A stretch of DNA of 35,995 nt from Alphaproteobacteria bacterium. GTDB lineage: Bacteria > Pseudomonadota > Alphaproteobacteria > Rs-D84. Each line of letters opens with the position of its first letter. Within the stretch, counting starts at the first letter, position 1. The notes under the pieces are model-generated. The model was not told where the DNA came from and made no database searches. It worked only from the letters and a program-made list of their open reading frames with translations. This document shows, piece after piece, positions 5,073 through 30,156 of this stretch. The translations under genes and the position numbers were made by a program. Location: NCBI GenBank assembly GCA_017528045.1, contig JAFXPG010000003.1, positions 1 through 35,995 of the forward strand. The letters are read 5' to 3'.

Positions 5073-7364
5073 ATGATAATTCATACAAAGACAAATTTCT
5101 TTAAGAATGCCATGGGAACAATGTTCTTGTTGGCTGCTGCGTTTTTTGTTTGTTCTACTTTGGTTTCAATGCGTTCTGTGTTTGCGGATCCTGTTGCACC
5201 AATTGTTAACAATATTCAAAAAACTGGCAGAACCAGTCCACGTTCTACATCCAGAACATCTAACAGAACTGTGGCACGTGCAACAGTTGCTTCTCGTGTT
5301 GCAAATACTGCGCAAAATACTGGAAAAACAGCGGTTTCTCGTGGGGTTGGAACACGTAAAGTGTCTTCACGTACAATTACTCCAACACGTGCTGTAAATA
5401 ATCAAAGTTCTTCACGTCGTGTTGTATCTCGTGATCAAAAAGTTGCAAATCGTTCACAAAAGACATCTTCACGTGCTGTACGTGCAAGAAGTGCTGCATC
5501 TAATACTTCTAATACATCAAGGGTAAGTGCAGTTGGCTCTGTTATGGCGGGTGTTCGTGCGGGGGGTACATCTTATTCTTATTTGTCCAGTAAATTATAC
5601 ACAGGTTCTTATTCAGATATTGTAGATTCTTCTACTGGTTTGATTTCTGCAGATGCATATTCAAATTGTATGGAATCTTATTACACATGTATGGATGAAA
5701 TTTGTACAGCCAGAAGTGATACCAAAGGACGTTGTTCTTGCGCTGGTCGTGCTGTAAGTTTCTTAGAAAGCGAAGAATTATTGGAACAAGCAAATGAAGA
5801 ATTGATTAAATTATCTGGTCAGTTGTCTTTGTTAATTGCAACAAAAGGTAAAGGTGATAATTTATCTGCTGCGTTTTCTTTAACAGAAGCAGAACAAGTT
5901 ATGAATTGTGTTTCTTGGAAAGAAGTAACAGATAAATATGGTATAAATTCCACTGAAGCTCAAGATTGGTGTTCTGCACATAATATTTTTGCTTCTGATG
6001 GTGGTACTGTTTCTTCATGTGCTAAACCAAAATATTGTGAAACAAATACATTTGGATTTAAAGTGTCTGATTTGAATGATGTAAAAGGTTCTTCTTCAGA
6101 TATTTTGGCACAATTGAAAGCGTGGGCTGATGCGAAAGATTTGGCAAAACAATATAAAGTAGATGATAAAAATAATTTATTATCAAGATACACATATATT
6201 AATGATGCTGTTAACAGTTTATCTAATGTAACAACAACGAATAATAATAACACAACAGATATTGATACATTGGCAAATAAATGGGGATATAAATTATTTG
6301 AATATGCCCATAACAATGTTTGTGGTCGTGTATTAGATTCTTGCTTTAACGGTATTTATGAAGCATGTGGAACACCTGTGGCTGTTACAGATTCTGATGG
6401 TAAAACACATACTAAATGTGGAAATGGAGCTTCTTCAAATTGTCCATTTAATTACAACAGTTATATCCATGTTGTTGACAGTGGTAAAAATTATGGTGAT
6501 GTGGTATTAAATGAACGTAATACGGGTAATACAAATGTAAATTCATCCGCATCATGTTTTGGTTATTCGTCTTCTGTGACGACATTATCTGGAACACGTA
6601 CAACAAATTCTACAACAACAGATCCTTATGCAACATTGCGTGGACCGGTTGCTGATGCACGTCGTTCTATTATGCAAAAGTATTTGTTGGATGCAAATGC
6701 TGCATGTGATGCTTATGGTGCTGCATTGAAACAAACTGCACAAAATATCAATTATCAAAAAATTGCAGCAGAACAAGCTTTGCAATCAAAACGTTTGGAA
6801 TTCAAACAAGAAGAAGAAAATCAAAGATTTGCTGATGCAAAAGATGCAATTGATAACTTCAATGAATGTATATCTGAAATTTGGGATTGCTATACCGATA
6901 TGGCAGACGAAGAAAAGACTTGGACAACAGCACGTATAAAAGCTTACTGTGCCCAGGTTTCCAACGTCCCACATTGTTATGAAACAATGATTTGTTCACC
7001 ATTACAAACACAATTGGTTTCTGTTATTGATAAAGCAGATAATACAGAATGTACATTTTCAACAGAACATAAAGAAAACAATTGCCGTAACGTTGTAACA
7101 ATCAGTGAAATCTTGTACGGTACTGGTGTTAAAGCAGCTTCAACTGATAAAGAAGCAGATATATTAAAGGCTTTGAACGGTGGTACAACTGTTTCTGGAT
7201 TAAGTTCTGCAAAATTACGTGAAGTATGTTTGCAATCCGCTTTGCAGACAGAAAACGGTGAAGAATGTAATTCTGCTAATAAAGACTGTTTACGTGGTTG
7301 GAAAAAGCCATCAAATACAGATAATGATAACAATTCATCGACAACAGATAATGAAAATAATTAA
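5073..7364 (+). CDS. Large exported C-x6-C repeat protein 1 (763 aa)
   Basis: A signal peptide with an extended n-region is cleaved after VFA (residue 38). Residues ~50-165 are a low-complexity Ser/Arg/Thr/Val-rich basic segment (RTVARA, RVVSR, RAVRAR). The rest is Cys-rich with pairs spaced C-x6-C: C199-C206, C417-C424, C599-C606, C732-C739. Residues 199-223 read C-x6-CMD-x2-C-x9-CSC, and 599-620 read C-x6-CY-x9-WTTA; both blocks recur with identical spacing in the 891-aa protein at 10826. A helical region at ~545-600 may be coiled coil. The C-terminus is Asn/Asp/Ser-rich. Likely periplasmic or surface-exposed and disulfide-rich. No known family is recognised. It has its own promoter and terminator. 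Confidence 0.85.
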   Translation: MIIHTKTNFFKNAMGTMFLLAAAFFVCSTLVSMRSVFADPVAPIVNNIQKTGRTSPRSTSRTSNRTVARATVASRVANTAQNTGKTAVSRGVGTRKVSSRTITPTRAVNNQSSSRRVVSRDQKVANRSQKTSSRAVRARSAASNTSNTSRVSAVGSVMAGVRAGGTSYSYLSSKLYTGSYSDIVDSSTGLISADAYSNCMESYYTCMDEICTARSDTKGRCSCAGRAVSFLESEELLEQANEELIKLSGQLSLLIATKGKGDNLSAAFSLTEAEQVMNCVSWKEVTDKYGINSTEAQDWCSAHNIFASDGGTVSSCAKPKYCETNTFGFKVSDLNDVKGSSSDILAQLKAWADAKDLAKQYKVDDKNNLLSRYTYINDAVNSLSNVTTTNNNNTTDIDTLANKWGYKLFEYAHNNVCGRVLDSCFNGIYEACGTPVAVTDSDGKTHTKCGNGASSNCPFNYNSYIHVVDSGKNYGDVVLNERNTGNTNVNSSASCFGYSSSVTTLSGTRTTNSTTTDPYATLRGPVADARRSIMQKYLLDANAACDAYGAALKQTAQNINYQKIAAEQALQSKRLEFKQEEENQRFADAKDAIDNFNECISEIWDCYTDMADEEKTWTTARIKAYCAQVSNVPHCYETMICSPLQTQLVSVIDKADNTECTFSTEHKENNCRNVVTISEILYGTGVKAASTDKEADILKALNGGTTVSGLSSAKLREVCLQSALQTENGEECNSANKDCLRGWKKPSNTDNDNNSSTTDNENN

Positions 7365-7369
7365 AAAAG

Positions 7370-7396
7370 ACCGCCCATTTGGGCGGTGTTTTTTTT
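7370..7396 (+). terminator. Terminator after the 763-aa gene
   Basis: ACCGCCC-attt-GGGCGGT followed by G and eight T residues. Confidence 0.9.
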
Positions 7397-7416
7397 GAAA
7401 TAAATATTCTTGGTGC

Positions 7417-7445
7417 TTTACACGATTTATTTTTTATGATAAAAT
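7417..7445 (+). promoter_or_regulatory. Promoter of the 824-aa gene
   Basis: TTTACA, 17 bp, TAAAAT. Predicted start ~7452 leaves a leader of only about 8 nt (AAGAGAG) before the ATG at 7460. Confidence 0.65.
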
Positions 7446-7459
7446 TGTATCCAAGAGAG

Positions 7460-9934
7460 ATGAAATTATTATCGCGTATTTTTACAATATGTTTGTGTTC
7501 TGCATCGCTTTATAATGCGTTTGCGGATGGTCCTGTTGCGACAACATCGGGTTCGAATTTGACTGCTTTTCATTCCAGTAATTCTTATAATAACCAATGG
7601 GCAACTTTGTCTAATGGTCGTGATAATTCTGCAAATTCTGGCAGTGCGAAAGCAGATTTTGGAAATTGTAATGCTTTGATTTCTCGTTGTGCACAACCGA
7701 AATGTGGGAATGGTGGTTGTACAGATTTAAGTATTGCTGAAAATATAGTCAAAGGCTGTGTTTTATCAAATACAACATGTAAAAAATATGGTGATGATTT
7801 AATCAGTGTGATGGCTGCCCAATTGGTGGCAACTTCTAATGCGAAAGTAAACACACAACAGGCACAAATTGCACAAATGCAATCTGCACAAAATCAACAA
7901 CAAATGCAAGATATGCAAAACCAGATGATGCAGATGCAACAAAATATGCAAAACCAATTGGCTCAACAAAACGCACAAACTGCGGCTGCTGTCCAAGATG
8001 CTTTGGCTGCCCAACAGGCACAGCATGAAAAAGAAATGGCGGAAATGAAAAGTGCCGCAACAGAAGCAGCCATGAAAAAAGAATCTGGGTTGACTGCATA
8101 TGAAGAACAAGCAATTGCAAATGGTGCAACCGCTGAGTTATTGGATCGTAAAAGAATTACCGGTGAAATTATTACAAAAATTGAAAATGCAGAAGATTCT
8201 ATGAAAGCCGTAGAAACTGCAATGCGTGAAGCATTTAAATATGCACAATGTGATAATCGTGGAAACAGCTGTGTTGGTCCAAAACGTGTAAGAAAATTCC
8301 GTGAAATTGCAACGAAATTCAGTGAACCTTATGATAACGTTGTTGAACAAATATATGATGCTTTGGATGATGCGCAAATGGTTGGCGGTATAGAACTTGG
8401 TGATATTATGATGATGTTGGATAATTCCTGCCAACATTGGGCACAATATCTTTGTCAACCTGGAAGCATAGAATATACAACCGATGAAAATGGTAACAAA
8501 GTCGCACCGTTGTCATGTAATTTTCCTACAAATCCAGATGATGATTTATGTAAAGATGGTGTTGCTGAGGTTGTAGAAATAAAAAAAGAACTAATTGGAA
8601 TAACTACAAACAATGAACCATTAGGAAGTACAACTGTTTCAGTACCTAAATTACAATTTGGAACGGTAGCAGTTACTAGTGCGAAGAAAAAATTGGAATG
8701 TAGACATAAATATTATTGTAAGCCTTGTTCAAAAATTAAAAATTTAACCAGCAAAGATGAGGTTTTTACCGGTTGGGTTGAAACGGAATATGATTCTTCT
8801 GAACCGCAAAAAGTTGTTGCGTGTGCAGATTCTGCGATTACAAATAATAAAATGCTGGGGCGTCGTGCAAAAAGCAGAAATGGTGCGGGGTTGGTGGATC
8901 CAGATATTATGGCAGATTGGTTAAGTCAAACAGAACCATCCAGATTAAGTACAGATGTAGACGGTAAATATAATGATGAAAAAGGAAAGGCTGTCATAAA
9001 AAAATATTGCGCTGTTGAAGAAAAAAATAAGACACTTTTAAGAAGGGCTGTTGCAAGTAAGTCTGTACCACAATGTACTTCAAACAGTGCCACAGATTGT
9101 ATTTGTAAGAAACCTGAAACACCAAGTCTTGCTATACAAACCGAAGATGGTGTATGTACAGAAGGAATAAACCCGCTTTACGCTTTGTGTGATACACATA
9201 TTTATAATGTTGGGGAACTTACTAACACCGTAGATGATACAACACGTGCAGATATGAAAGAAGTTATCGCTTTAAAAACAACGGTTATAACGCAACAATT
9301 GTATAAACAATATGAATATTTGAAAGCCACTTTACGCAGATTGCAAGTAATGTTGGAAAAAGCGGTTTATACATCAACTTTGGAAGCGGCCGGTGCCAAG
9401 ACAGAATCTGGTTCATCCAGCTCTGGTTCCAGTTCAGGATCTGAAAAGAGCAAAGATAAAACTTTGCATGTAAGTGGTGCTATGAATTGTTCTTCCCAGC
9501 AAGATTTGGAATTATTTGGTAATTGTATAGCCAGTAATGCCAGTTTGATTGTTACACATGCCGAAGATAATGACAAAAGCAAAGCATGTAAACAGTTGTT
9601 ATCTGATTTAAGAACTGTTAATTCGCGTTTAAGTATAGAAGGTGTTTTGTATAATGCAGCTAATCCAAATGGTTTACAATGGTCGGCATGTAAAGTTTAT
9701 TTGGATGAAGAAACTGTTGATTGTTCTCCTAAAGGAGAAAATGGGTGCGGTGCTGACGGAAAGAAAAAGCAGATTCAAGTACCTTATGTTGTTAAGAGTG
9801 GTTGTGATGGGGATATGAAAAAAAGAGATACTATAAGAGCTTGTGCAAATGAAATGTCAAGTGCAGTAGGTGTTGCAAAACGTAAAGTAAAAAACCAAGG
9901 TGTTAGCCTAAGAGATGTTTTGCTTGGAAATTAA
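7460..9934 (+). CDS. Large exported C-x6-C repeat protein 2 with Gln/Met-rich coiled coil (824 aa)
   Basis: The ATG at 7460 gives a signal peptide (MKLLSRIF..., cut after AFA, residue 22); the frame is open further upstream but crosses the promoter and terminator. C-x6-C pairs are at C70-C77, C100-C107 and C264-C271, with further Cys to the end. Residues ~130-200 are a Gln/Met/Ala-rich coiled coil, and ~640-670 another helical stretch. A Ser/Gly linker occurs near residue 655. It shares the start of the mature protein (DG/DP after the cleavage site) and the Cys spacing with proteins 1 and 3, but lacks the long Ser/Arg-rich segment, so it is a more distant relative. No known family. Probably a periplasmic or surface structural component (inference). 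Confidence 0.85.
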   Translation: MKLLSRIFTICLCSASLYNAFADGPVATTSGSNLTAFHSSNSYNNQWATLSNGRDNSANSGSAKADFGNCNALISRCAQPKCGNGGCTDLSIAENIVKGCVLSNTTCKKYGDDLISVMAAQLVATSNAKVNTQQAQIAQMQSAQNQQQMQDMQNQMMQMQQNMQNQLAQQNAQTAAAVQDALAAQQAQHEKEMAEMKSAATEAAMKKESGLTAYEEQAIANGATAELLDRKRITGEIITKIENAEDSMKAVETAMREAFKYAQCDNRGNSCVGPKRVRKFREIATKFSEPYDNVVEQIYDALDDAQMVGGIELGDIMMMLDNSCQHWAQYLCQPGSIEYTTDENGNKVAPLSCNFPTNPDDDLCKDGVAEVVEIKKELIGITTNNEPLGSTTVSVPKLQFGTVAVTSAKKKLECRHKYYCKPCSKIKNLTSKDEVFTGWVETEYDSSEPQKVVACADSAITNNKMLGRRAKSRNGAGLVDPDIMADWLSQTEPSRLSTDVDGKYNDEKGKAVIKKYCAVEEKNKTLLRRAVASKSVPQCTSNSATDCICKKPETPSLAIQTEDGVCTEGINPLYALCDTHIYNVGELTNTVDDTTRADMKEVIALKTTVITQQLYKQYEYLKATLRRLQVMLEKAVYTSTLEAAGAKTESGSSSSGSSSGSEKSKDKTLHVSGAMNCSSQQDLELFGNCIASNASLIVTHAEDNDKSKACKQLLSDLRTVNSRLSIEGVLYNAANPNGLQWSACKVYLDEETVDCSPKGENGCGADGKKKQIQVPYVVKSGCDGDMKKRDTIRACANEMSSAVGVAKRKVKNQGVSLRDVLLGN

Positions 9935-9955
9935 TACGGTATATAGTTTTTTATC

Positions 9956-9980
9956 AAAACCGCCAAATGGCGGTTTTTAT
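9956..9980 (+). terminator. Terminator after the 824-aa gene
   Basis: AAAACCGCC-aaat-GGCGGTTTTT. Confidence 0.9.
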
Positions 9981-10023
9981 TTTGTGTTATTTTATTATTT
10001 GCATAAATTTTTGTGCAAAAATG

Positions 10024-10051
10024 TTGACTTTTGATATTTTGTGTGTATAAT
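10024..10051 (+). promoter_or_regulatory. Promoter of rplU-rpmA
   Basis: TTGACT, 16 bp, TATAAT, with a ~58-nt leader holding a weak AT-rich stem-loop (10056-10082). Confidence 0.75.
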
Positions 10052-10116
10052 TTGCATAAAATTTTCTGCATAAGAAATTTTAATATTAACAATTTAATTA
10101 ACAAAAGAGAAAGAAT

Positions 10117-10416
10117 ATGTCAGTATTTGCTATCTTTCAAACCGGTGGAAAACAATACCGCGTTCAAGAAGGCGATATCGTTAAAGTTGAAAAATTAGAA
10201 GCAACCGGTTCGGTCACTTTCGACCAAGTATTAATGGTTGGTGACAAAGTTGGAACACCTTTTATCGAAGGTGCAACTGTTGTTGCTGATGTTATCGAAC
10301 AAAAACGTGATGACAAAGTTTTGGTGTTCAAGAAAAAACGTCGTCAAAACTATCGCAGAACTGCCGGTCATCGTCAGTTTATCACTGTTTTGAAAATTAA
10401 ATCAATCAAGGCCTAA
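10117..10416 (+). CDS. rplU: 50S ribosomal protein L21
   Basis: 99 aa, the usual length. The hallmark N-terminus FAIFQTGGKQYRV, the central DQVLMVGD and the basic FKKKRRQNYRRTAGHRQ segment identify L21, which binds 23S rRNA domain I in the large subunit. AGAGAAAG precedes the ATG. It is followed 27 nt later by rpmA, the usual L21-L27 pair; the pair is inserted between two C-x6-C protein genes. Confidence 0.98.
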   Translation: MSVFAIFQTGGKQYRVQEGDIVKVEKLEATGSVTFDQVLMVGDKVGTPFIEGATVVADVIEQKRDDKVLVFKKKRRQNYRRTAGHRQFITVLKIKSIKA

Positions 10417-10443
10417 CAGACCCACAATCGAAGGAGTTTAATT

Positions 10444-10710
10444 ATGGCACATAAGAAAGCGGGTTCAGCATCTACAAACGGACGCGATTCAGCCGGACGC
10501 AGATTGGGTGTGAAAAAAAGTGGCGGCAGCCGCGTTATCCCAGGTAATATCATCATTCGTCAACGTGGAACATCTGTTCATCCAGGATTGAATGTTGGTA
10601 TGGGTAAAGACCACACATTGTTCGCAAAGATTGCTGGTATCGTTACATTTAAACGTGGTAACGGCGACAGAAAAACAGTTTCTGTTGTTCCAGATTCTGA
10701 ATCTAAATAA
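10444..10710 (+). CDS. rpmA: 50S ribosomal protein L27
   Basis: 88 aa. [20 protein letters not shown] at the N-terminus, then [17 protein letters not shown] and [14 protein letters not shown] are diagnostic of L27, whose N-terminal tail reaches the peptidyl-transferase centre. AAGGAG lies eight bases before the ATG. The N-terminus begins directly with MAHKK, so there is no cleavable leader of the Firmicutes type. Two terminators in tandem end the operon. Confidence 0.98.
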
Positions 10711-10711
10711 T

Positions 10712-10741
10712 AAAAAATCACCCAATTGGGTGATTTTTTTT
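10712..10741 (+). terminator. First terminator after rpmA
   Basis: AATCACCC-aatt-GGGTGATT followed by T residues. Confidence 0.9.
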
Positions 10742-10745
10742 GTAT

Positions 10746-10776
10746 AAATCCTTGCTTTTTTGGCAAGGATTTTTTG
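10746..10776 (+). terminator. Second, tandem terminator after rpmA
   Basis: AAATCCTTGC-loop-GCAAGGATTT plus T residues, 5 nt after the first terminator. Confidence 0.8.
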
Positions 10777-10805
10777 TTTATATGCTTTTATTTATTTTTT
10801 GTTTG

Positions 10806-10814
10806 TGATATAAT
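10806..10814 (+). promoter_or_regulatory. Extended -10 promoter of the 891-aa gene
   Basis: TGATATAAT ends 11 bases before the ATG at 10826, so the leader would be about 5 nt. No clear -35. Confidence 0.55.
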
Positions 10815-10825
10815 AATTCTTAAGG

Positions 10826-13501
10826 ATGAAGAAATTATTTTTATGTTTTTTCGGGGTTGTTTTCTGTACCGCGAATTTGTTCGCTGCGGATGGTGTTGCT
10901 ATATCACGCAGTTTTAACGCAAAAAATGTTTCAAACCTTATGGAAAATAACAATATCCCAGAAGAAAAATCTCAAGATAATTCACGTACTGTTTCACGCA
11001 GATCAAATATTGAAAAAGAATCAAATAATTCACGTGTCGCAACACGTAATGTGAAACGTACAAATGTAGTAGCCAGAAAAACAAATACGGAAAACACAAC
11101 AAAATCTACTTCGCGTTCTGTGAATAATCAAAGGGCGGTTAATGCTCGTGCAACTTTGTCAGATGGTGTTAATACTGTTGGACGTAATGCACGTGTTGAT
11201 GCGGCCAGTATTAATAATACTGCGGCTGTCAGACGTGCGGGGGTTGTTTTGCGTGCATCTACTGCAGAAGTTGGTGGCCGTGCAACAATTGGTAATACTG
11301 GTGTTCAAACAGGTTCTAATATAGATGAACAAGTTCATTCTAACAGATCACGTGCTTCTTTGTTTGGATCCAAGAAAGAAGTGACTCCAACTGCAGAATC
11401 TATTGCAAATGCAAAAGATATTTTGGAAAAAACTGCTGATTTAAATAATACATGCCAACAACAATATAACGAATGTATGGATCAATTCTGTATGGTTGTT
11501 GATGCAAATCAAAAAAGATGTTCTTGTTCTGCTAATCTGGACAGATATGCAAAGGTTCAAAAAGCTGTTGAAGAAGCAAATGCTGAATTAAATGAAGTTG
11601 CACAAAATATTCGTTATGTTGGTTTATCTGCAAATGAAATTCGTGCAATATTTTCTGCTACTGAAGCAGAAGAAGCAATGGCAAAAACAAAAGATAATAC
11701 TCAAACCCGTTCTTTGTTAGATGATATTGCAGAAATGATAGAAGACCCAAGTGCAACTTCTTCTGTATCAACAAACAATTCTGGATTTTCAACAATGGAT
11801 ATGGATTTGGATTTTTCTTCTGACAGTGCTGATATGTTTTCTTTGGATATGTTTTCTGGTTCAAAAGATATTTCAAATAAACGTGGTCGTGATTTATATA
11901 CAGAAGCAACAAAACGTTGCAAGGCAGTTTTAAATTCTTGCAAAGAAGCAGGGGGTACAGAAAAATTAATTACTGGAAATTATGATTTGGCTATTGATAA
12001 AGATTGTATCGCTTATGAACAAGGTTTAAAAAAATTAAATGATTCTTTGTTGGCTAATGTTCGCAGTGCTAATTTAATGTTACAAAAGGCTCGTTTGGCG
12101 GTATTACAAAATAAAAATCAATATGATATCAAAGGATGTGTTGCTGCGCTGGAAGAATGTATGTTAGACGATATGGTTTGTGGCGAAGGTTATAAGAAAT
12201 GTCTGGATCCAACAAAACAATTTATCGATGAAAATGGAAATGTTGTTTTGGGACGTAATATTTCAAATATAACAGCTTTTATGCAAAATTATGATAATTC
12301 AAAAATTACACCTGAATTTATTAAAAATGTTTCTAAGACTACCAGCTGTGTTAAAGGTGATGGTGATTGTGTTGTGAATTATTTGTTAAAGAAAATTGGT
12401 ACTGGTGCAACTGTTCAAGAAGGTGGTCTGTGCCGTGCAGTATTAGATAAATGTCAAGATTACACTTATACTAAAATGAATAAAAAATCTGTGTATAATC
12501 CATATAATGATGTTGTTGTGAATTATATTCAACGTGCAATGGTTAATATAAAAGCAGCTGATAATAAAATTATTGCAGATTATGCTGCGTCTTGTATGAA
12601 TGATGTTGCAGAATGTTATAATGAACAATATTCTCAAATCAGTTCTTGGACAACAACTGCAAATGCAGACAGTGTTTATAATATTATGAAAGGTTCGTGT
12701 TATAACGTTGCTTTGACTTGTGGACATGCAGTATTTGCATATGATAAAGCAATGGGTGAAAAAATGGATGAAATTGCAGAAAATAATAAAGAAAACGAAA
12801 AAGCAAAAATACAAGCTCAAAACGATACTTTGATTGCTGGTATTGCAGAATTATTCGCACAAAATATGATATGCCCAGATAATTCAACATTTACAAATGA
12901 AGTTGGCGAAGTTTCACCAAATGGAACAATTGGTATAGAAAATATCGAATATTATATAGCGAATATCACAAAAGCTAGTACAGGTTGTCTTGTTAGTGGG
13001 GTATGTACAGCATCACCATTAAGACCAAGATTATGTACAGCTTGTGTAATCAGCCCAGCTACAGCAAGTTATACAGAAGATAAAAAAGATACATATTCCA
13101 AGAAAGCGTATGTTAATACACATTGTATTTGTAATACTGATTATGTTGTGTGGAATGGTTCATGTATATCGCAATGTAATGAAGGTTATTACAGAAATTC
13201 TTCTGGTGGATGCACTAAGTGCGATGGAACTTTGGCTGGTGGAAAAAAATTGGTTACAGCTATAGATGGAATTGATGCGTCTGAAACAAAAAGAGTTACA
13301 GAATATACAAAGTGTGAGCAAGATACTACATCTTCTTCAACTTCTTCAGCAAACACAGCATCAACAAATACAACTTCAACAAACAGTTCTTCAACAAATA
13401 CAACTACAGCGTCAGCTATTGGTACTGCTGCTTTTCAAGATATTTTTGACAGAACATCGCCAATTGTATTGCCAAAATCCGATTATTTACTAAGAAACTA
13501 A
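10826..13501 (+). CDS. Large exported C-x6-C repeat protein 3 (891 aa)
   Basis: Signal peptide cleaved after LFA (residue 20). Residues ~50-165 are Ser/Arg/Thr/Asn/Val-rich and basic (RTVSRR, RVATRNVKR, NVVARK), like protein 1. Seven C-x6-C pairs follow: C210-217, C365-372, C438-445, C452-459, C536-543, C590-597, C625-632. Residues 210-234 read C-x6-CMD-x2-C-x9-CSC and 590-612 read C-x6-CY-x9-WTTTA, matching protein 1 residue for residue in spacing; FSxTEAE (276-282) is also shared. Residues ~720-790 form an EGF/TNFR-like Cys-rich segment (CICNTDYVVWNGSC...CNEGYYRNSSGGC). The tail is Ser/Thr/Ala/Asn-rich. No known family. Its stop overlaps the dnaQ stop by 3 nt, with no terminator between. 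Confidence 0.85.
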   Translation: MKKLFLCFFGVVFCTANLFAADGVAISRSFNAKNVSNLMENNNIPEEKSQDNSRTVSRRSNIEKESNNSRVATRNVKRTNVVARKTNTENTTKSTSRSVNNQRAVNARATLSDGVNTVGRNARVDAASINNTAAVRRAGVVLRASTAEVGGRATIGNTGVQTGSNIDEQVHSNRSRASLFGSKKEVTPTAESIANAKDILEKTADLNNTCQQQYNECMDQFCMVVDANQKRCSCSANLDRYAKVQKAVEEANAELNEVAQNIRYVGLSANEIRAIFSATEAEEAMAKTKDNTQTRSLLDDIAEMIEDPSATSSVSTNNSGFSTMDMDLDFSSDSADMFSLDMFSGSKDISNKRGRDLYTEATKRCKAVLNSCKEAGGTEKLITGNYDLAIDKDCIAYEQGLKKLNDSLLANVRSANLMLQKARLAVLQNKNQYDIKGCVAALEECMLDDMVCGEGYKKCLDPTKQFIDENGNVVLGRNISNITAFMQNYDNSKITPEFIKNVSKTTSCVKGDGDCVVNYLLKKIGTGATVQEGGLCRAVLDKCQDYTYTKMNKKSVYNPYNDVVVNYIQRAMVNIKAADNKIIADYAASCMNDVAECYNEQYSQISSWTTTANADSVYNIMKGSCYNVALTCGHAVFAYDKAMGEKMDEIAENNKENEKAKIQAQNDTLIAGIAELFAQNMICPDNSTFTNEVGEVSPNGTIGIENIEYYIANITKASTGCLVSGVCTASPLRPRLCTACVISPATASYTEDKKDTYSKKAYVNTHCICNTDYVVWNGSCISQCNEGYYRNSSGGCTKCDGTLAGGKKLVTAIDGIDASETKRVTEYTKCEQDTTSSSTSSANTASTNTTSTNSSSTNTTTASAIGTAAFQDIFDRTSPIVLPKSDYLLRN

Positions 13502-14271: not shown

Positions 14272-16332
14272 ATGGATAATCTTAACCCAGAACAACAAAT
14301 GGCTGTTAAAACAACTGATGGTCCTTTATTGGTTCTATCTGGGGCAGGAACAGGTAAAACACGTGTGTTGACCGCACGTGTTGCACATATTTTGTTTAAT
14401 AATTTGGCATATCCTTGGCAAATATTGTCTTTAACTTTTACTAATAAAGCAGCAAATGAAATGCGTTTCAGGGTCGCACAATATAGTGAGATATCACATC
14501 TTTGTCGTGATTTGTGGATGGGAACTTTTCATTCTGTGTGTTTAAGAATATTACGTTCTAATTATACTGCCGCTGGGTTAAGAAGTGATTTTTTAATATA
14601 TGGTGAAGATGATCAAAAAGCTATTTTAAAACGTGTTATTGTAAATTTAGGTTTTGATACCAAAGAATTTAACCCATCAGATTGGGTTGATACTATTTCT
14701 AATATCAAAGATAAAGGAATAACAGATTTTACAAAAATGAATCTGTCAGCAAATACACAAAAAATATTAAATGCTTATAACACAGAATTAACCCGTATGG
14801 GGGCAATTGATTTTGGAGACATAATCTTATATGTTTTAAAATTATTTGAATCTCACGTTGAAATATTGAACAAATATCAACATCAATTCAAATATATTAT
14901 GGTTGATGAATTTCAAGATACTAATGCTGCACAAATGATGTTGTTAAAAATGTTAACCAAAGATAATGAATGTCCAAATATTTGTTGTGTTGGTGATGAT
15001 GATCAATCTATATATTCTTGGCGTGGTGCAGAAATAAGAAATATTTTAGAATTTGAAAAAACTTATCCTGGGGCAAAAATAATCAGATTGGAAACTAATT
15101 ATCGCAGCAGTGGAAATATTTTGTATGCTGCGAATTCTTTGATAAAACATAATACAGGAAGATTGGGTAAAGATTTAAAGCCTGCACCAAATGTTGATAT
15201 GGGGGAAAAGGTTTATATTGCAACTGTTCCAAGTGATTGGGATGAAGCACGTTTGATTTCTGATGCTATTATCAGAAATTCAAATAATAATTTTTCAGAT
15301 TTTGCCGTATTAATTCGAGCAGGTTCTTTATCTAGAACATTTGAAGAAGAATTTACTGGTCGTAATATTCCTTATCGTTTAGTTGGTGCAACTAAGTTTT
15401 ATGATAGAGCAGAAATACGTGATGCAATAGCATATATAAGATTGTTAGTTTACCCTTTTGATGATATTTCTTTTGAACGTATTATTTCTAAACCACGTCG
15501 TGGTTTTGGAGATAGTGCAATAGCAAATTTGCGTTCATATGGAAAAAGTTTAATGGAAGGTTTAAAAATCGCTAAATTGACATCTAAACAACAAGAAAGC
15601 GCATCAGATTTTTTGGCTGCGTTTAATTTTGATTGGCAAAATACTACACCAAAAGATGCGGTACAACAGTTATTAGAAAATTCTGGATATCTTAAGATGT
15701 GGCGTGAATCTAAAGATACAGATGCTGCGGAACGTTTAGAACATATTCGTGAATTAATATCTGGTGTTGTTTCTAAATATGATACTTTGCCGGAATTTTT
15801 GGAGCATGCTGCATTGATGATGACAGATGATAATGATGCCGAAGGTGATGAAAAGAATGTTGTAAGTATCATGACAATACATGCAGCAAAAGGTTTGGAA
15901 TTTAATACGGTATTTTTGCCAGCTTGGGAAGAAGGTATTTTCCCAAATGATAAAAAGTCAGATTCTGATATAGAAGAAGAAAGAAGATTAGCTTATGTTG
16001 CAATAACACGTGCACGTGTTCGTGTTATAATTACTAATGCTATGGTTCGTTCAATGTTTGGACAAAGATTGTATCAAAGTTCTTCACGTTTTATTGGTGA
16101 AATGAACAGAGAATTTGTTTTTGTTCAAGGTGATTATAACTATTCTTATAATTCACAAAAAACGGAATATAAACCAAAAGCAAAAAAAATTGAATCTGTT
16201 GTTGGTAAAATGGTTGTTCATGCAGAAATGGGAACAGGTGTTGTGATATCTGAAAATGGCGATATATTAACTGTTGCTTTTAAAACAAAAGGTATCAAAA
16301 ACGTAGCCCGTAATTTTTTGAGATTTGTTTAA
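14272..16332 (+). CDS. uvrD: UvrD/PcrA-type superfamily 1A DNA helicase
   Basis: 686 aa from the ATG at 14272. In-frame ATGs at 14257 and 14263 overlap or precede the predicted transcription start and have no ribosome site. Superfamily 1 motifs in order: Q motif LNPEQQMAV near the start, Walker A SGAGTGKTR (~23-31), motif Ia TFTNKAANEM, motif II VDEFQDTN (~215), motif III GDDDQSIYSWRGA, motif IV ETNYRSS, motif V TIHAAKGLEF, motif VI VAITRAR. It unwinds DNA in nucleotide excision and mismatch repair. The C-terminal ~60 residues form the variable UvrD/PcrA tail. Its stop codon overlaps that of the convergent VirB6-like gene. Confidence 0.95.
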   Translation: MDNLNPEQQMAVKTTDGPLLVLSGAGTGKTRVLTARVAHILFNNLAYPWQILSLTFTNKAANEMRFRVAQYSEISHLCRDLWMGTFHSVCLRILRSNYTAAGLRSDFLIYGEDDQKAILKRVIVNLGFDTKEFNPSDWVDTISNIKDKGITDFTKMNLSANTQKILNAYNTELTRMGAIDFGDIILYVLKLFESHVEILNKYQHQFKYIMVDEFQDTNAAQMMLLKMLTKDNECPNICCVGDDDQSIYSWRGAEIRNILEFEKTYPGAKIIRLETNYRSSGNILYAANSLIKHNTGRLGKDLKPAPNVDMGEKVYIATVPSDWDEARLISDAIIRNSNNNFSDFAVLIRAGSLSRTFEEEFTGRNIPYRLVGATKFYDRAEIRDAIAYIRLLVYPFDDISFERIISKPRRGFGDSAIANLRSYGKSLMEGLKIAKLTSKQQESASDFLAAFNFDWQNTTPKDAVQQLLENSGYLKMWRESKDTDAAERLEHIRELISGVVSKYDTLPEFLEHAALMMTDDNDAEGDEKNVVSIMTIHAAKGLEFNTVFLPAWEEGIFPNDKKSDSDIEEERRLAYVAITRARVRVIITNAMVRSMFGQRLYQSSSRFIGEMNREFVFVQGDYNYSYNSQKTEYKPKAKKIESVVGKMVVHAEMGTGVVISENGDILTVAFKTKGIKNVARNFLRFV

Positions 16333-17630
16333 AGTTTGTCTTTAGACCATGCTTTTACTACTTTACCACCAAAACCTTTTATATCTCCCCATAATGTCTT
16401 TGTGTCTGATTGTAATTGCTTACCAAATGCGTTGTCTATTTTTCCACCAAGTTGTGTTGCATATTCGTCTGTTTTATCAGCCAAATGTAATATTAAACAA
16501 CCTGTTATTAAAATTACCATTGCAGAACCAACTTCAAAACCATTATTTTGATTGTCAGAAATTATAAAAGTTAATAATACAGAACATATGGCGATAACTA
16601 TTGATAAAGATACAAAATATATTGTTGCATTGATAAATGTATTTATAATATCTGATAATTTTTTTGTGTTAAATACTTTCAATAATCCACTGAATATTTG
16701 ACCTGCATAATTTTTTTCACTTATTGATGGCATGGATTCTGCTAATGCGGTAAAAGGTAACATTAATATTGTGAAAAATAAATCTGCAACAACACCTAAT
16801 GTCATAAAAGCATATTTGAAAATACATTTGATAAAGATGTACAAAGCAACAATACCAACAATTGTTGCGGTGATACTGTTACCAAGTTTTAACCCATATT
16901 TTATCCAATCAAATGCACTTCCTATTGCATAATAGAAAAATGTTGATAAACGACCAGGTAAACACATTATATCTGCAGCTGCTTTTGCATCCCCTATTAA
17001 TAAGTGACCAGACATATTGTTTGTAACATAATCTTTTATTGCTGCACATGTGTCAACATTTGCAATATTTGAATTATATACATTTGAAACAGAATCTATA
17101 ATAAATGTTGAAATATAAGTTCCCAAAGATAATATAGGAGTAACTATCAATTCAAATATTTCTTCCGGTTTAGAATTTAAAATTAAAACCCAAACAACAA
17201 TAATTAAACCTTTTTTAAAAACTTCATAAAAAACTGTTTTATAATCAGTTGATTCTCGAATCATTTTATAAGCATTTAAACCAATCCAAAATGCGTACAT
17301 AATAAATAAAAATACGATTGTAAAAGGAACAAGTGTTTTTTGTAATACTTCACCGATAGGTGACATTGCTTGCATAAACATTAGCCCAAGTTTTGTTTCT
17401 ATTGGAACAAATCCTGGTTTTTTTATGTTTTCTTGAAATTTGATATTATATTTTTCAATGTCTGATTGCATGGAATTACTGTATGTTTCCATGTTTTCTT
17501 CTATTATCCAATCACCATATTCTGCAATTTCGCCATAAGGTGTGTTTGTTTCAGCAAAAGATGTATTGAACAAGCTTGCTGTTATCAAGCAAATTAATAA
17601 AACAGATAAAATTTTACGAATGTATTTCAC
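16329..17630 (-). CDS. VirB6/TrbL-like polytopic membrane protein (433 aa)
   Basis: GTG start with AAGGA upstream. Signal peptide cleaved after SFA (residue 26), a ~60-residue periplasmic stretch, then about seven hydrophobic helices. Shared features with its four neighbours: a TP-x3-LG motif after the second or third helix (VTPILSLGTYIS), a later LMLPFTALAES segment, and a basic Trp-containing cytoplasmic tail (DTKTLWGDIKG). This is the topology of the VirB6/TrbL channel component of type IV secretion systems, found in multiple copies in Rickettsiales. Assignment rests on topology and motif similarity, not a database match. Last gene of the operon, 2 nt after its upstream neighbour. Confidence 0.6.
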   Translation of the reverse strand: MKYIRKILSVLLICLITASLFNTSFAETNTPYGEIAEYGDWIIEENMETYSNSMQSDIEKYNIKFQENIKKPGFVPIETKLGLMFMQAMSPIGEVLQKTLVPFTIVFLFIMYAFWIGLNAYKMIRESTDYKTVFYEVFKKGLIIVVWVLILNSKPEEIFELIVTPILSLGTYISTFIIDSVSNVYNSNIANVDTCAAIKDYVTNNMSGHLLIGDAKAAADIMCLPGRLSTFFYYAIGSAFDWIKYGLKLGNSITATIVGIVALYIFIKCIFKYAFMTLGVVADLFFTILMLPFTALAESMPSISEKNYAGQIFSGLLKVFNTKKLSDIINTFINATIYFVSLSIVIAICSVLLTFIISDNQNNGFEVGSAMVILITGCLILHLADKTDEYATQLGGKIDNAFGKQLQSDTKTLWGDIKGFGGKVVKAWSKDKL

Positions 17631-17632
17631 TG

Positions 17633-19096
17633 TTATTTTCCTTGCATCTTGTCGTATATTTTATCATACAATTGCATTGGTTTATTATAAACTTGTTTTG
17701 CTGCATCTTTTAACCAATCACCATAATTAAATGTTTCTTTTTCGTCTTTGGATGTATTTAACAAAGTGTCTATCTTTGGGGATAATACCCAAAAGTATAA
17801 CAATCCAATACCAATCATAAATATAAAGAAATCAAATCCGTCATCCATAAAATCAAAAGCCCCAGGATATCTTGATTCAACATAAGTTTTTTGTGCATTA
17901 AAACATGATAAAAACTTAGATTTATCAATTTCACCATCTGTAATAGATGTTTGTTCACAAGTTGTAAATACTTTCATAACAGACATTGTTTGTGCATCAG
18001 GGTTTTTATCGTATATTTCACCCAATAATGGTGGCATTATTGATGTAAAACCATCATGTGGTCCTGGATAAAAAGAATCAGATGCAAAGAACACAATCGC
18101 ATAAATAATTGTTATTTTTAAACTTATTTTTAATATGCTGATTGCTGATTTTATTAATATATCAATTGCAGAATTCATAAGACCTTTAGATATACCCCAA
18201 ACTTCTTCAAATGCTGCTGCTGCAATTAATAATGGCATAAATATAATTATAAATATTAATTTAAATAAAACATTTAAGACTTGGAATAATAAATCAAAAC
18301 CAATTATCAAAAATATAATTACCAATGCTAACCCTGACAACCAAGTAAATAATCCGCCCCCCATTCCTAGCCACGAATAATTCATCAATGCAAAACCACC
18401 AGCAGCACCAGCAAGCATAACAGTATTAAGATTTCCTATTACACACATAAATGGTTTTAATACAGGATTTAATATATCAGACATGTCAGAGTTATCTTCT
18501 TTTATTTCTAACATATCACATTTGATATTACTAATTCTGTTAGTTGCTATTGTTGATAAAGTTGTACCAATGTACATCACAGGAGATACGACTAATTGTG
18601 TTGTTGTTTTTAATACACTTGCGCCTGTCCAATTTATTGCACCTAAAAATGCGGCTGCTATCAAGACACGAACAGCTGTTTTCCAAACTTTTTCAAACCA
18701 TTTTCCAAATTCTAATTTTGGTTCGCTTGAAGTTAAATCTTTTATATCTTTAGAATTTGCTGCTTCGTTTATTTGTTTTAATGTATGCATAACAACAAAT
18801 ATGCCAAAACCAATAACCATAACAACCCAAAGATATTTTACTAATTTTTCCCAAAACATTTGTGTCGTGTTACCAATAACTGCAAATAAATCATACATAT
18901 ATGTGCATAGAAAACATCCATTAGTGGTAGATATATCACCATCTTGGACACCGATTTGTTTTAAAAACTGATCAACGCTTGTATAAGATAAAGAAGCCCC
19001 CCCAATAGAAGAAGACAAATAGCTTATCCCTATGCCAATAACTATGGCAATAAATAAGAATTTTAAACCTTTTTCAATAAGCCACTTTTTTATCAT
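17633..19096 (-). CDS. VirB6/TrbL-like polytopic membrane protein with CxxC (487 aa)
   Basis: An N-terminal hydrophobic anchor, then a short periplasmic loop with C61-F-L-C64, followed by about seven helices. The VSPVMYIGTTLS motif corresponds to VTPILSLGTYIS of the downstream paralog; the MPLLIAAAAFEE segment marks the conserved late helix. The tail is basic and Tyr/Lys-rich (DWLKDAAKQVY). The start overlaps the stop of the upstream 405-aa gene (ATGA), so translation is coupled and no separate ribosome site is needed. A longer periplasmic loop (around residues 345-425) contains further Cys. Probable inner-membrane channel subunit of a secretion-type complex. Confidence 0.6.
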   Translation of the reverse strand: MIKKWLIEKGLKFLFIAIVIGIGISYLSSSIGGASLSYTSVDQFLKQIGVQDGDISTTNGCFLCTYMYDLFAVIGNTTQMFWEKLVKYLWVVMVIGFGIFVVMHTLKQINEAANSKDIKDLTSSEPKLEFGKWFEKVWKTAVRVLIAAAFLGAINWTGASVLKTTTQLVVSPVMYIGTTLSTIATNRISNIKCDMLEIKEDNSDMSDILNPVLKPFMCVIGNLNTVMLAGAAGGFALMNYSWLGMGGGLFTWLSGLALVIIFLIIGFDLLFQVLNVLFKLIFIIIFMPLLIAAAAFEEVWGISKGLMNSAIDILIKSAISILKISLKITIIYAIVFFASDSFYPGPHDGFTSIMPPLLGEIYDKNPDAQTMSVMKVFTTCEQTSITDGEIDKSKFLSCFNAQKTYVESRYPGAFDFMDDGFDFFIFMIGIGLLYFWVLSPKIDTLLNTSKDEKETFNYGDWLKDAAKQVYNKPMQLYDKIYDKMQGK

Positions 19097-20310
19097 TTTT
19101 TATCTTTTTTATCACTTGAATCTTTTGATTCTTGTTTTTCTTGTTCTTTTATTGCCGCTTCCGGATTAATTACTGTTTTGAATCCTTGTTTAACATTGTT
19201 TAACATTGTATCAGTTAATGCCAACATATTTGAACCCATTTCTTTGGACAAAGAATCTTCCTGTTTGACGCCAAATACAGACATTATTTTTTCTGTTATC
19301 TTTGGTATTTGATCTGCAATATATCTAATTACGTATACTAATACAATAGATCCTGCGAAAGTAATTTCGGCAATACTAGAATTTTCTAAATCAAAATTAT
19401 AAAGATTTGATATTGAATTTTTTATTTCATTTACATCTGTAGAATTATTTGTTAAGAAACCTTGGATAATTAACATTATTATTGTATATGTCAGTATAGC
19501 AGATGCAACAGATACTATTGCATTAATTAATTTTTTGATTTGGCCTGCACCTAAATTTCCACCCAAGTTTTTCATCCATCCTGGTGCATCTTGAGCATCT
19601 TTAAATATGAAAAATATTATCGATAATGGAAAAAAGAAACCAAACATTGCCATTGCAAAAATTACATCCATAAAACAAAAAGAATACCTGATAAATAAAC
19701 GAATAAAATTATATGTTAAAAATAGTCCAATGAAGAAAATAATAATATGTTTTATAAGATTACCAATGCCAAACAATGCGTGTAAACTAAAAGCTGCGTC
19801 CATAATACTGATACCAACATTAATATAAATTTGAAAATTAGATACACTGGTTTGTAACAATTTTATAATAGTATCTCGTAATTGCGGACTGAACATCCCA
19901 GAATCATCCATTTGAATTTTTTGATAATCGTCATTTATCGTTAAACCTTTTGTTAAAGATTCTGTGTAAAGTAAAGTCATATCCGCTGTTGGTTCAAATG
20001 TTATTTTTGTTACTAATTTAGGAAAACTTAATCCTGCACTTAACAAAGCCAATACCAACAATGATTTTATTAAAACCGGTTTTAACGATTTTTGAAACAT
20101 TGGATCAGGCATTTGTTTTTTCATGTTTTGCCAAACAACATTTATCATATAAAAAGCAAATAATATGCAGAAAATAATTACAGCAAAAGTAGACAGTTTT
20201 TGATATAAAACACCTGCAGCTTTTGATATTACGACAAACAGATTATCAAATATAGGACATGTCCAACATGTGACTGTTTCTCTTACTAAAGATTCTGCTA
20301 GTGCTGGCAT
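19093..20310 (-). CDS. VirB6/TrbL-like polytopic membrane protein with CxxC (405 aa)
   Basis: The N-terminus has no signal peptide but a short segment with C15-W-T-C18-PIF, closely matching CWTCQIF of the divergent paralog at 21703. About seven helices follow, with FEPTADMTLLYT in place of the family P-x3-LG motif. The C-terminal tail is long, highly charged and Lys/Asp/Ser-rich, ending in SSDKKDKK. AGGAAAG lies before the ATG, 3 nt after the stop of the upstream gene. Predicted inner-membrane protein of the same complex as its neighbours (inference from operon and similarity). Confidence 0.6.
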   Translation of the reverse strand: MPALAESLVRETVTCWTCPIFDNLFVVISKAAGVLYQKLSTFAVIIFCILFAFYMINVVWQNMKKQMPDPMFQKSLKPVLIKSLLVLALLSAGLSFPKLVTKITFEPTADMTLLYTESLTKGLTINDDYQKIQMDDSGMFSPQLRDTIIKLLQTSVSNFQIYINVGISIMDAAFSLHALFGIGNLIKHIIIFFIGLFLTYNFIRLFIRYSFCFMDVIFAMAMFGFFFPLSIIFFIFKDAQDAPGWMKNLGGNLGAGQIKKLINAIVSVASAILTYTIIMLIIQGFLTNNSTDVNEIKNSISNLYNFDLENSSIAEITFAGSIVLVYVIRYIADQIPKITEKIMSVFGVKQEDSLSKEMGSNMLALTDTMLNNVKQGFKTVINPEAAIKEQEKQESKDSSDKKDKK

Positions 20311-20313
20311 GTT

Positions 20314-21618
20314 TTATTTCTTTCCTATTATTTTTTTACCCACACCAAACCAATCTTTTACAGTTTTAGGTGCGGCTTTTGTTTTTGTCCATATTGTTTT
20401 TGCATCACCAGTTACATTTGTATACAACGTTTTTGGTGTTCCACTGGTGTACATTTCTAATCTTTCACGTGTTAATTTGAATATGTTTTGCATCAAGAAT
20501 ATTGTTAATAAAGACGATAACCATAAAACAGAATGAGAACCAAAATTCATAGCTGTATTTGTAATAGAAGGAATGTTGCTGCTGGATACGCCCGATGCTG
20601 CTGCGACAAAAACAGAAGAAGACCAATTAAACAAAGCTCTAACAACAGATATGTTTATACATAACATGAAAGCACATGCAATCATAGTTATTACTAGTTT
20701 TTTTAAAGAATCTATGATTTGTTCAAATGCTGGTAGAAAATCAACCCATTTATCAGATTTTTTTGCAACCCATGCTAACACATTAAAAGGGTACATTATT
20801 AAAGATAAACAAAAATCAAAAATACCTTGGATTATTAGTAAAGCCATAAATACATTTGATGAAACAAAGGCCGTTATTAATAATATGCCGGTAATTATAT
20901 TCATTAAATCTTCGCCACCATGTGGTATTAAAACCATCATTCCTTTTATACCCTGGCGCAGAAAATCAAAACCATATTTTATAACACGATTATTTTCTTT
21001 AGATATAGCATAAACAGGACGAATTAAAAAATTACAACTGCGCTCAGATATCCATTTAGAATCTGTTATAGATGCAGGACAAGAAATTCCTTCATCAATG
21101 GATATAGAAGAATTAACAGTTTTTAAAATATTTTCTGTATAAAAATAACCAAACTCTAAAAAAGGGTCGACCAAAAACTTTGTTATATATGTTGGCTTTA
21201 TTTGTAACAACAATATAATAGCAATTAATGCACGTAAACATGGTTTAAAAACATTGTCTGCTATTTTCCAACCTGTGGCAGAACCATCCCATATTTCGCC
21301 ACCACCAGAAAAACCTAAAAATGACAGCCAATCTTTTGGTAAATACATTTTAAATAAATACAATCCGATATAGAAAGCTAAAAATGCATAGATTAATGTG
21401 TAAATAATTCCATGACCATTATCTACAAAAAAATCGTATAAATTAACAGCCATATTCATCATTGTTTCTAAAACAATTGGAATAAAAGGGGCAAGATTAT
21501 AAGAATCTAATATGTCTGCTTTTGCTGGAAAAGATACAAGAGAAAATGCCAAGAAAGCCAATAATATGCTTTTGACACCAAATGAAGACATAAATTTTTT
21601 AAAATTTATTTGGAACAT
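20314..21618 (-). CDS. VirB6/TrbL-like polytopic membrane protein, first gene of operon (434 aa)
   Basis: A signal-like N-terminus (cut after AKA, residue ~34) is followed by about seven helices. VDPFLEFGYFYT matches the family P-x3-[LF]G motif; LIMYPFNVLAWVAKKSDKW is the late conserved segment shared with the plus-strand paralog (LMLPLMLMAWMFDKDNF). The tail TGDAKTIWTKTKA parallels DTKTLWGDIKG and KDANLMWENLKK in the paralogs. The start has GAGAGAGA just upstream. It heads a four-gene operon in which the genes are 2-3 nt apart or overlap by 4 nt, so stoichiometric production is likely. Confidence 0.6.
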   Translation of the reverse strand: MFQINFKKFMSSFGVKSILLAFLAFSLVSFPAKADILDSYNLAPFIPIVLETMMNMAVNLYDFFVDNGHGIIYTLIYAFLAFYIGLYLFKMYLPKDWLSFLGFSGGGEIWDGSATGWKIADNVFKPCLRALIAIILLLQIKPTYITKFLVDPFLEFGYFYTENILKTVNSSISIDEGISCPASITDSKWISERSCNFLIRPVYAISKENNRVIKYGFDFLRQGIKGMMVLIPHGGEDLMNIITGILLITAFVSSNVFMALLIIQGIFDFCLSLIMYPFNVLAWVAKKSDKWVDFLPAFEQIIDSLKKLVITMIACAFMLCINISVVRALFNWSSSVFVAAASGVSSSNIPSITNTAMNFGSHSVLWLSSLLTIFLMQNIFKLTRERLEMYTSGTPKTLYTNVTGDAKTIWTKTKAAPKTVKDWFGVGKKIIGKK

Positions 21619-21646
21619 TCTCTCTCTGTTGATTTTTATTAATTGA

Positions 21647-21655
21647 ATTATATCA
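21647..21655 (-). promoter_or_regulatory. Extended -10 promoter of the VirB6-like operon
   Basis: TGATATAAT on the minus strand, 28 bases before the ATG at 21618. It faces, and lies within 35 bases of, the divergent promoter at 21687-21695. Confidence 0.55.
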
Positions 21656-21686
21656 CATTTTTAATAATTTATGGTATAATAATTTA

Positions 21687-21695
21687 TGATATAAT
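21687..21695 (+). promoter_or_regulatory. Extended -10 promoter of the divergent VirB6-like gene
   Basis: TGATATAAT; a second TGGTATAAT lies at 21672-21680. The first box ends 7 bases before the ATG at 21703, predicting a leaderless mRNA. Confidence 0.6.
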
Positions 21696-21702
21696 TAATG
21701 TT

Positions 21703-29100: not shown

Positions 29101-29111
29101 TGGAGTATAAA

Positions 29112-30156
29112 ATGAAAATATGGATTGCAACAGGTGGAACAGGTGGACATGTTTTTCCTGCGTTAAGTGTGGCAACAGAAATTGAAAAACGTGGACATCA
29201 AGTAACTATTTCCACAGATGGTCGTGTATTAAAAATGGTTAAAAATGGCAAACCTACGAAAGCAAAAGTTGTTTTTGTGTGGGCTTCTGGGGTTGGTGCA
29301 AAATCAAAAATTAAACAAATTATTGCGTTAAGTAAAATAGGTGTGTCTGCGATTGCTTTGTCTTTACGGTTTATGTTTTTTAGACCAGACAAAGTTGTTG
29401 CTTTCGGTGGATATGCATCTGTGCCAGCGGTGTTTGCAGCGCATTTGTGGAAAATTCCAACTTATTTACATGAACAAAATGCGGCGATTGGTCGTGCAAA
29501 TAAATTTGCATTACGTTGGGTAAAAACGTTAATGACCAGTTTTAAAACAATTGATGGTTTGCCATCAAATACAAATAAAAGTTGTTTATACAGGATTGCC
29601 TGTGCGTGCAGATTTTTTGAATGCAGCAAATACACCTTTGCAACATAAAAATAAAATTTTAGTTACAGGTGGATCTTTGGGAGCACAAGTTTTAGATGAA
29701 GTTGTTCCAATTGCAATATCTGAAATGAAAAACAAAAAGATTTTTGTTACACATCAAACGCGTCCAGAAAATGTTGATAAATTGCAAAAATTTTATGCAG
29801 AACATAAAATTCGTGCAAATGTTTTATCTTTTATTCATGATATGGCAGGTTCTATTTCAGAAGCAGATTTGGTTATAGGTAGAAGTGGGGCCAATACAGT
29901 TATAGAATTAGAAACAATTGGTCGTCCTGCTATTTTAGTTCCTTTGGGAATAAATCCTGATCAAGCAGCAAACGCGGCTTCTTTTGTGAAATTAGTTGGT
30001 GGTTTTGCTGTACAACAAGATAAGTTTACAGCTAAATGGTTAACTAATACTTTAGATGATTTGTTTGATAATCCTGTCAGATTAGATAAGATGTCACAAA
30101 AAGCCTGTGTGAAAAATCTGGCTGTGTCAAAAATATCAGATACAATCACAGAATAA
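29112..30156 (+). CDS. murG: MurG glycosyltransferase gene, interrupted by a +1 frameshift
   Basis: MurG adds GlcNAc to lipid I at the inner membrane. The N-terminal half (MKIWIATGGTGGHVFPAL, GGYASVPAV, HEQNAAIGRANK) reads in one frame from 29112, with GGAG upstream, and diverges after ~29579; that frame stops at 29648. The C-terminal half (VVYTGLPVRADF, ILVTGGSLGAQ, LVIGRSGANTVIELETIGRPAIL, DQAANA) reads in the +1 frame to 30156. Skipping one A of the AAAA at 29577-29580 joins them as ...NTNK-VVYTGLPVR, giving a normal ~347-aa MurG. Because murG is essential, a sequencing or assembly error in the A run is the simplest explanation; a real mutation with a second copy elsewhere or recoding are alternatives. 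Confidence 0.85.

Follow-up and report, generated by a model that had tools for sequence, protein, structure and literature searches.

An order-wide family of exported cysteine-rich proteins with repeated C-x6-C segments in Rs-D84 Alphaproteobacteria

In a 35,995-nucleotide stretch of DNA from an alphaproteobacterial genome (the window), two genes encode members of a protein family that, judging by the sequences, is real, spans the order Rs-D84 and is undescribed in the sequence libraries and literature that we searched. We assign the family to a kind that is already known, the Cys-rich exported envelope proteins. Because its mechanism is drawn by analogy, we do not call it categorically new. 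The two members in the window are proteins A and C, and the neighboring Cys-rich protein B belongs to a separate family (Table 1).

The window is one contig (C8) of a genome of 891,511 bases in 16 contigs, which is 92.6% complete. The genomes with relatives of protein C are metagenome genomes, whose sources, where titled, are mostly the gut of ruminants or other animals. Four of them are named as Candidatus Enterousia species, and we infer that the window comes from this genus. NCBI taxonomy places Enterousia in Alphaproteobacteria incertae sedis, and GTDB release 220 places it in the order Rs-D84 (PMC12306168). The members of this order are uncultured bacteria of many animal guts with small genomes, without a respiratory chain and without the standard sugar, amino-acid and peptide transporters; they are probably partner-dependent, and their route of metabolite acquisition is unknown (PMC12306168). 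No mention of a cysteine-rich family was seen in this description. Flagellate-free termites also yield Rs-D84 genomes (PMC11257099). An Rfam scan for the region of the family genes gave nothing of use, its only matches being 23S and 5S rRNA, at 1-588. Elsewhere in the window, murG consists of two overlapping ORFs (N- and C-terminal glycosyltransferase 28 halves, 29100-30156, + strand), so it carries a frameshift or an assembly error. The 409-aa protein at 30253-31482 (+ strand) has a hydrophobic N-terminal stretch and a weak OmpA/glycine-zipper match (E 0.005), and a Pfam search at E 0.01 gave no match to it.

Table 1. Positions of proteins A, B and C and of their observed and predicted features in the window.
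Feature	Position	Strand	Remark
Protein A, 763 aa, with a divergent Cys-rich body after the signal peptide, basic linker and N-terminal Cys domain	5073..7364	+	Family member
Predicted signal peptide of A, about residues 1-39	5073..5189	+	Hydrophobic core; end judged by eye
Basic Ser/Arg/Thr/Ala-rich linker of A	5190..5642	+	16% R+K, 3% D+E, 67% STNAVG; limits approximate
N-terminal Cys domain of A, C199-x6-CMD-x2-C-x9-C-x-C	5667..5741	+	Homologous to domain in C
Second shared block of A, C599-x6-CY-x9-WTT	6867..6929	+	Suggestive homology
Protein B, Cys-rich, exported	7379..9934	+	Separate family; 851 aa from upstream TTG, 824 aa from ATG at 7460
Protein C, 891 aa, 34 Cys	10826..13501	+	Family member; best studied
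Predicted signal peptide of C	10826..10888	+	Hydrophobic core; end judged by eye
Basic Ser/Arg/Thr/Asn/Val-rich linker of C	10889..11425	+	16% R+K, 9% D+E; limits approximate
Core domain of C, residues 202-466	11429..12223	+	Source of family profile (258 positions)
Predicted staple 1: C210-x6-C217 with C365-x6-C372	11453..11941	+	210/372 lost together; 217/365 from geometry only
Predicted pair C232/C394	11519..12007	+	Lost together, one event
Predicted staple 2: C438-x6-C445 with C536-x6-C543	12137..12454	+	445/536 lost together; 438/543 from geometry only
Further C-x6-C segments C590/597, C625/632	12593..12721	+	C590/597 in 119/119 rows; C625 in 39/119
EGF-like Cys-rich tail of C, C767-C799	13124..13222	+	Likeness by eye; varies among orthologues

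The ORFs of 763 and 891 aa, each with an N-terminal hydrophobic signal, were confirmed. The initial annotation had counted four, three and seven C-x6-C pairs in A, B and C. Protein A indeed has four pairs, both over its whole length and without the signal peptide, and this exceeds chance (mean of 0.88 in shuffles, with four reached in 46 of 5000). Protein C also lies above the shuffles, with more pairs than reported: nine without the signal peptide (shuffle mean 1.11; 0 of 5000 shuffles reach nine) and ten over the whole length. Three of the nine overlap in the run C438-445-452-459, which leaves eight separate pairs. The block C-x6-CMD-x2-C-x9-CSC has, as described, identical spacing in A and C, and the N-terminal Cys domain common to both proteins is homologous (hhalign 98%, E 3e-14). 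The second block, described as C-x6-CY-x9-WTTxA, is present in both proteins as C-x6-CY-x9-WTT, but the following Ala is placed differently (WTTA in one and WTTTA in the other). A profile comparison of this block (43%, E 2.5e-4; reversed control 0.4%) makes its homology suggestive. The firm likeness of A to the family is limited to the N-terminal Cys domain. The basic segment after the signal is real, with 16% Arg+Lys in each protein, but it is longer than the proposed 110 residues or so, at about 160 residues in A and 185 in C. The predicted signal peptide of A is well conserved among 24 orthologues.

Protein B had been placed in the same family, and we reject this assignment. Its three C-x6-C pairs are not above chance (shuffle mean 1.08, 421 of 5000 shuffles reach three; whole-length p 0.11), its profile matches that of C over the signal peptide only (12.6%), and there is no match to the profile of A (0.1%). 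A search of 59 genomes found B in 33 of 35 genomes of the same genus and gave one weak match elsewhere in the order. Thus, B is nearly confined to the genus among these genomes. It carries a Gln/Met-rich stretch at about residues 140-220.

The 0.89-Mb genome encodes at least 13 family members, more than had been reported: A, C, ten proteins of 741-998 aa and one short form of 315 aa. Together they sum to about 31.6 kb, or about 3.5% of the genome. Searched with C at E up to 10, the genome yielded 20 stretches that match, and the five Cys columns of the N-domain were aligned in all 13 ORFs. The layout by which we define the family, an exported protein with a C-x6-C-x4-C...C-x-C N-domain and C-x6-C segments, was found in the ORFs of this genome. 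The N-terminal hydrophobic core is present in 12 of 13 members; the remaining one, p886, lacks it as called and may be mis-started. The linker between the signal and the first Cys of the domain, usually basic and rich in Ser, Arg, Thr and Asn, varies from 24 to 189 residues. In 12 of 13 members Arg+Lys make up 11-25% of it and Asp+Glu 0-9%; in p741 Arg+Lys make up 6%. Beyond the five-cysteine N-domain, most members have further C-x6-C segments. The C-terminal parts differ among paralogues: C has a Cys tail that is EGF-like by eye, and p741 and p998 have glycine-zipper hydrophobic stretches. Six of the 13 members lie on one contig (C12). On C12, p886 belongs to a run of three and adjoins rplQ and rpoA. 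In a genome from another family of the order (G038), rplQ/rpoA have tandem members at a distance of a few kb, with a recombinase-like ORF in between; gene names in both genomes were assigned by eye. The presence of members near these genes in both genomes suggests that this neighborhood is an old location of the family. The same genome also encodes two exported-looking Cys-rich proteins with no C-x6-C pair: one of 405 aa with 35 Cys (L081, G000:C12:32993-34210) and one of 423 aa with 23 Cys (L085, G000:C14:10664-11935).

To follow the family across genomes, we used a profile (A5) made from the core of 11 members of this genome, with A and the short form left out. It finds a match in 142 of the 143 order genomes. 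Among the genomes with a completeness of at least 90% and a contamination of at most 5%, 119 of 120 have a match, and the only miss is G040. Counted as stretches and not as genes, there are 8 to 20 matches per genome in the Enterousia family and 2 to 6 in the other families of the order with a match, in both cases among the matches listed. Sampling 385 genomes of the class gave six with a match: four of the genus, one of the order and one outside it. The last of these, a match of E 1e-4 within a frame of 124 aa, was taken as chance. Protein C itself has a strong match, in some cases partial, in 35 of 35 same-genus genomes (best E at or below 1.1e-149). Divergent members in the order mostly keep the signal, the Arg/Ser-rich linker and the N-domain, the last of which is no independent evidence, since they were picked by its motif. 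Two genomes of family f4 (G043 and G045) carry tandem trios of shorter members of 378-606 aa (L313 and L321), which may be nearer to the ancestral form. An origin of the family from plasmids or phages is not supported: at E 0.01, neither the 72,556 plasmid records nor the 50,697 phage records searched contained a match to the core of C. A viral scan with the A5 profile gave nothing of use.

The statement that no known family has this layout held in Pfam, NCBIfam, PHROGs, PADLOC and PDB sequences. No Pfam family exceeded its cut-off for A or C, and none was credited in 20 orthologues of C; NCBIfam, PHROGs and PADLOC also gave no credited match. DUF2959, the most frequent Pfam match (8 of 20 C orthologues, best E 0.014), was judged to be noise, as were the weak matches to TFIIA (in B) and PFF1_TM (in A). 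Among PDB sequences, the best E was 0.84 for A and 0.22 for C, and the latter match, FAM155A, is also noise. We found no description of the family by titles and abstract starts in the open-licence PMC literature.

The spacing of six residues is a property of the family as a whole. In 119 members, non-redundant at 80% identity, neighboring Cys stand six apart 947 times, compared to 138 in shuffles. Spacings of 1, 4, 9, 10, 11 and 20 are modestly raised and none approaches six; for nine, the counts are 173 observed and 121 shuffled. With Cys masked, seven of seven C-x6-C windows favor a periodicity of 100 over 170 degrees, as do 407 of 514 windows overall, so helix-like periodicity is not distinctive of C-x6-C windows. 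Proline does not exceed 2% in six of the eight spacers; it reaches 4% in 365-372 and, over only 12 rows, 3% in 508-515. The 452-459 spacer is glycine-rich. Given this proline and glycine content, not all segments need be simple helices.

We determined which Cys are lost together. In the genus-centered set of 119 rows, 90 have both C445 and C536 and 29 have neither; no row has one alone. This joint loss is one event on the tree, and we therefore added divergent relatives, giving a wider set of 105 rows. There, wherever both columns are aligned, C445 and C536 are concordant (83 of 83 rows: 60 have both Cys and 23 have neither), and the tree shows four and three changes; this count leaves out 16 rows in which C445 is scored and C536 is unaligned (99 versus 83). 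For C210 and C372, 88 of 89 aligned rows are concordant; direct reading of the residue seven positions ahead of C217 gives 95 of 98. Of the three exceptions, L112, L296 and L292, the last two are probably alignment faults, as judged by eye. C232 and C394 show the same state in all 100 rows, with one loss. When changes were placed on the tree at random, with their numbers set by hand near the parsimony counts (4/3, 4/5 and 1/1), the result was equaled in 5, 23 and 336 of 20,000 trials for 445/536, 210/372 and 232/394, respectively. In a sign test on independent pairs no pair was significant, the events being too few. Two other candidates were discarded: 365/438, which comes from one row (L112), and C515/C625 (phi 0.80), which failed on the tree (0 same way and 1.1 opposite, of 3 independent pairs).

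The paired loss supports a stapled arrangement, since it is what one would expect if disulfides staple antiparallel helices. If 210/372 and 445/536 are bonded across antiparallel C-x6-C helices, C217 would face C365 and C438 would face C543. These four Cys hardly vary, so the pairs 217/365 and 438/543 follow from geometry. A disulfide-stapled helical hairpin had been proposed earlier. The paired loss is consistent with the stapling, but the implied bridges (210/372, 445/536) join distant C-x6-C segments and do not lie within one.

In searches for thiol oxidation genes that covered DsbB, VKOR and the DsbA-like PF13462, with some incomplete genomes in the counts, a DsbA-like protein was found in 49 of 53 order members, and DsbB and VKOR in none of the 53. 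Among six genomes of the same sample from outside the order, five have DsbB and one has VKOR. The own DsbA-like copy (L083, G000:C11:57939-58805) has a CPYC site. With neither DsbB nor VKOR found in the 53, the order shows no complete known oxidation route, which counts against the disulfide reading proposed below. The absent partner of the DsbA-like protein raises the question of how hundreds of conserved Cys get oxidized, if they do, without DsbB, VKOR and, reportedly, respiration.

We propose the following reading, whose mechanism is drawn by analogy and to which we give an even chance. The family would consist of order-wide, mostly multi-copy, Sec-exported envelope or surface proteins, which probably serve to coat or arm the surface of the cell. 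Their C-x6-C segments would be helices packed antiparallel, with two disulfides locking each contact, which would make rigid, protease-resistant rods oxidized by the DsbA-like CPYC protein. The basic tether may bind a polyanion, either the own lipopolysaccharide or the surface of a partner cell. The differing C-terminal parts (EGF-like tails, glycine-zipper segments, extra Cys modules) could give each paralogue its own job, and the resulting coat or adhesive layer would serve the partner-dependent life. Counting against this reading, the orthologues of A and C are 49-67% identical to the window copies, a level not typical of antigenic surface proteins. A nearly universal, expanded exported family offers a handle on metabolite acquisition and a target for localization and binding tests. 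A bolder version is possible, though we hold it only tentatively: the family would be an undescribed class of folds that defines the order and consists of disulfide-stapled helical rods. These rods would make up the order's main surface layer or its apparatus for partner attachment and would be oxidized via the DsbA-like protein with a re-oxidant that is neither DsbB nor VKOR, in cells reportedly without a respiratory chain.

The proteins might instead form an S-layer-like or disulfide cross-linked armor that shields the envelope in the gut and has no adhesive role. A nearly universal, multi-copy, conserved and very Cys-rich family would suit such armor. The presence of the peptidoglycan genes mraY, ftsW and the murG halves in the window means that a replacement wall is unneeded, and the family is a set of diverse paralogues, not one abundant protein, so we consider this explanation unlikely.

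The family could also supply a type IV secretion apparatus with its periplasmic scaffold or with parts in the outer membrane. In a survey of the order by VirB4 alone, this ATPase is present in 47 of 53 members. The own VirB4 (804 aa) has VirB4_CagE as its best NCBIfam model (E 9e-118, under the curated cut-off). Near the family genes, at 16329-22995, lie five ORFs of 405-487 aa that are multi-membrane-spanning by eye. Pfam gave no match to them and NCBIfam no credible one; by eye they may be VirB6/TrbL-like and possibly part of such a system. Other findings speak against this role. The genomes G032 (94% complete) and G035 (97%) have the family and no VirB4 match, and G040 has VirB4 and no family match. 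In the two virB4 regions read (G000 and G043), none of the genes next to virB4 belongs to the family, whose own genes are dispersed over contigs, and models of conjugation Cys-rich proteins in Pfam and NCBIfam do not match the family. Thirteen large paralogues are also many for parts of a type IV system. Altogether, this role is quite improbable.

Finally, it is very doubtful that the Cys bind zinc, iron-sulfur or copper in a periplasmic storage or redox system instead of forming disulfides: the regular spacing, the finding of neither DsbB nor VKOR in the 53 members and the largely anaerobic gut habitat would fit metal, but the proteins are exported, a DsbA-like CPYC protein is present, and 445/536 are lost in twos while the flanking 438/543 stay, which favors separate bonds over four-cysteine metal sites.

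The preferred reading, that of stapled rods at the cell surface, can be compared with three known systems. TraN of F-type conjugation is a large, Cys-rich, exported protein linked to type IV secretion and cell contact. In contrast to TraN, the family is multi-copy and has no transfer operon in the regions read, and TraN/TraU-type models are not among the Pfam and NCBIfam matches of its proteins. The CHCH proteins form a helical hairpin, with two helices linked by two disulfides (PMC12114033), and the paired Cys loss in the family fits this two-disulfide geometry. Unlike the twin CX9C of CHCH proteins, the spacing in the family is six and not nine, and the partner segments are far apart in sequence; the members are exported bacterial proteins of about 300-1000 aa with no match to PDB sequences.

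The body of the chlamydial protein OmcB is Cys-rich, and Pfam includes an OmcB model. The family differs from OmcB in its C-x6-C segments and 13 paralogues, and it has no Pfam family above cut-off. In OmcB, as in the family members, a signal peptide is followed by a basic N-terminal segment. Residues 41-79 of OmcB hold its adhesive region, which binds heparin and heparin-like glycans (PMC2229832). Chlamydial envelope proteins are disulfide cross-linked, and Chlamydia trachomatis has DsbB (PMC6752827), which was found in none of the 53 members of Rs-D84. Chlamydia is a partner-dependent bacterium, as the Rs-D84 bacteria probably are. Compared through Pfam models, OmcB is the nearest analogy to the family, by a likeness of layout rather than by membership.
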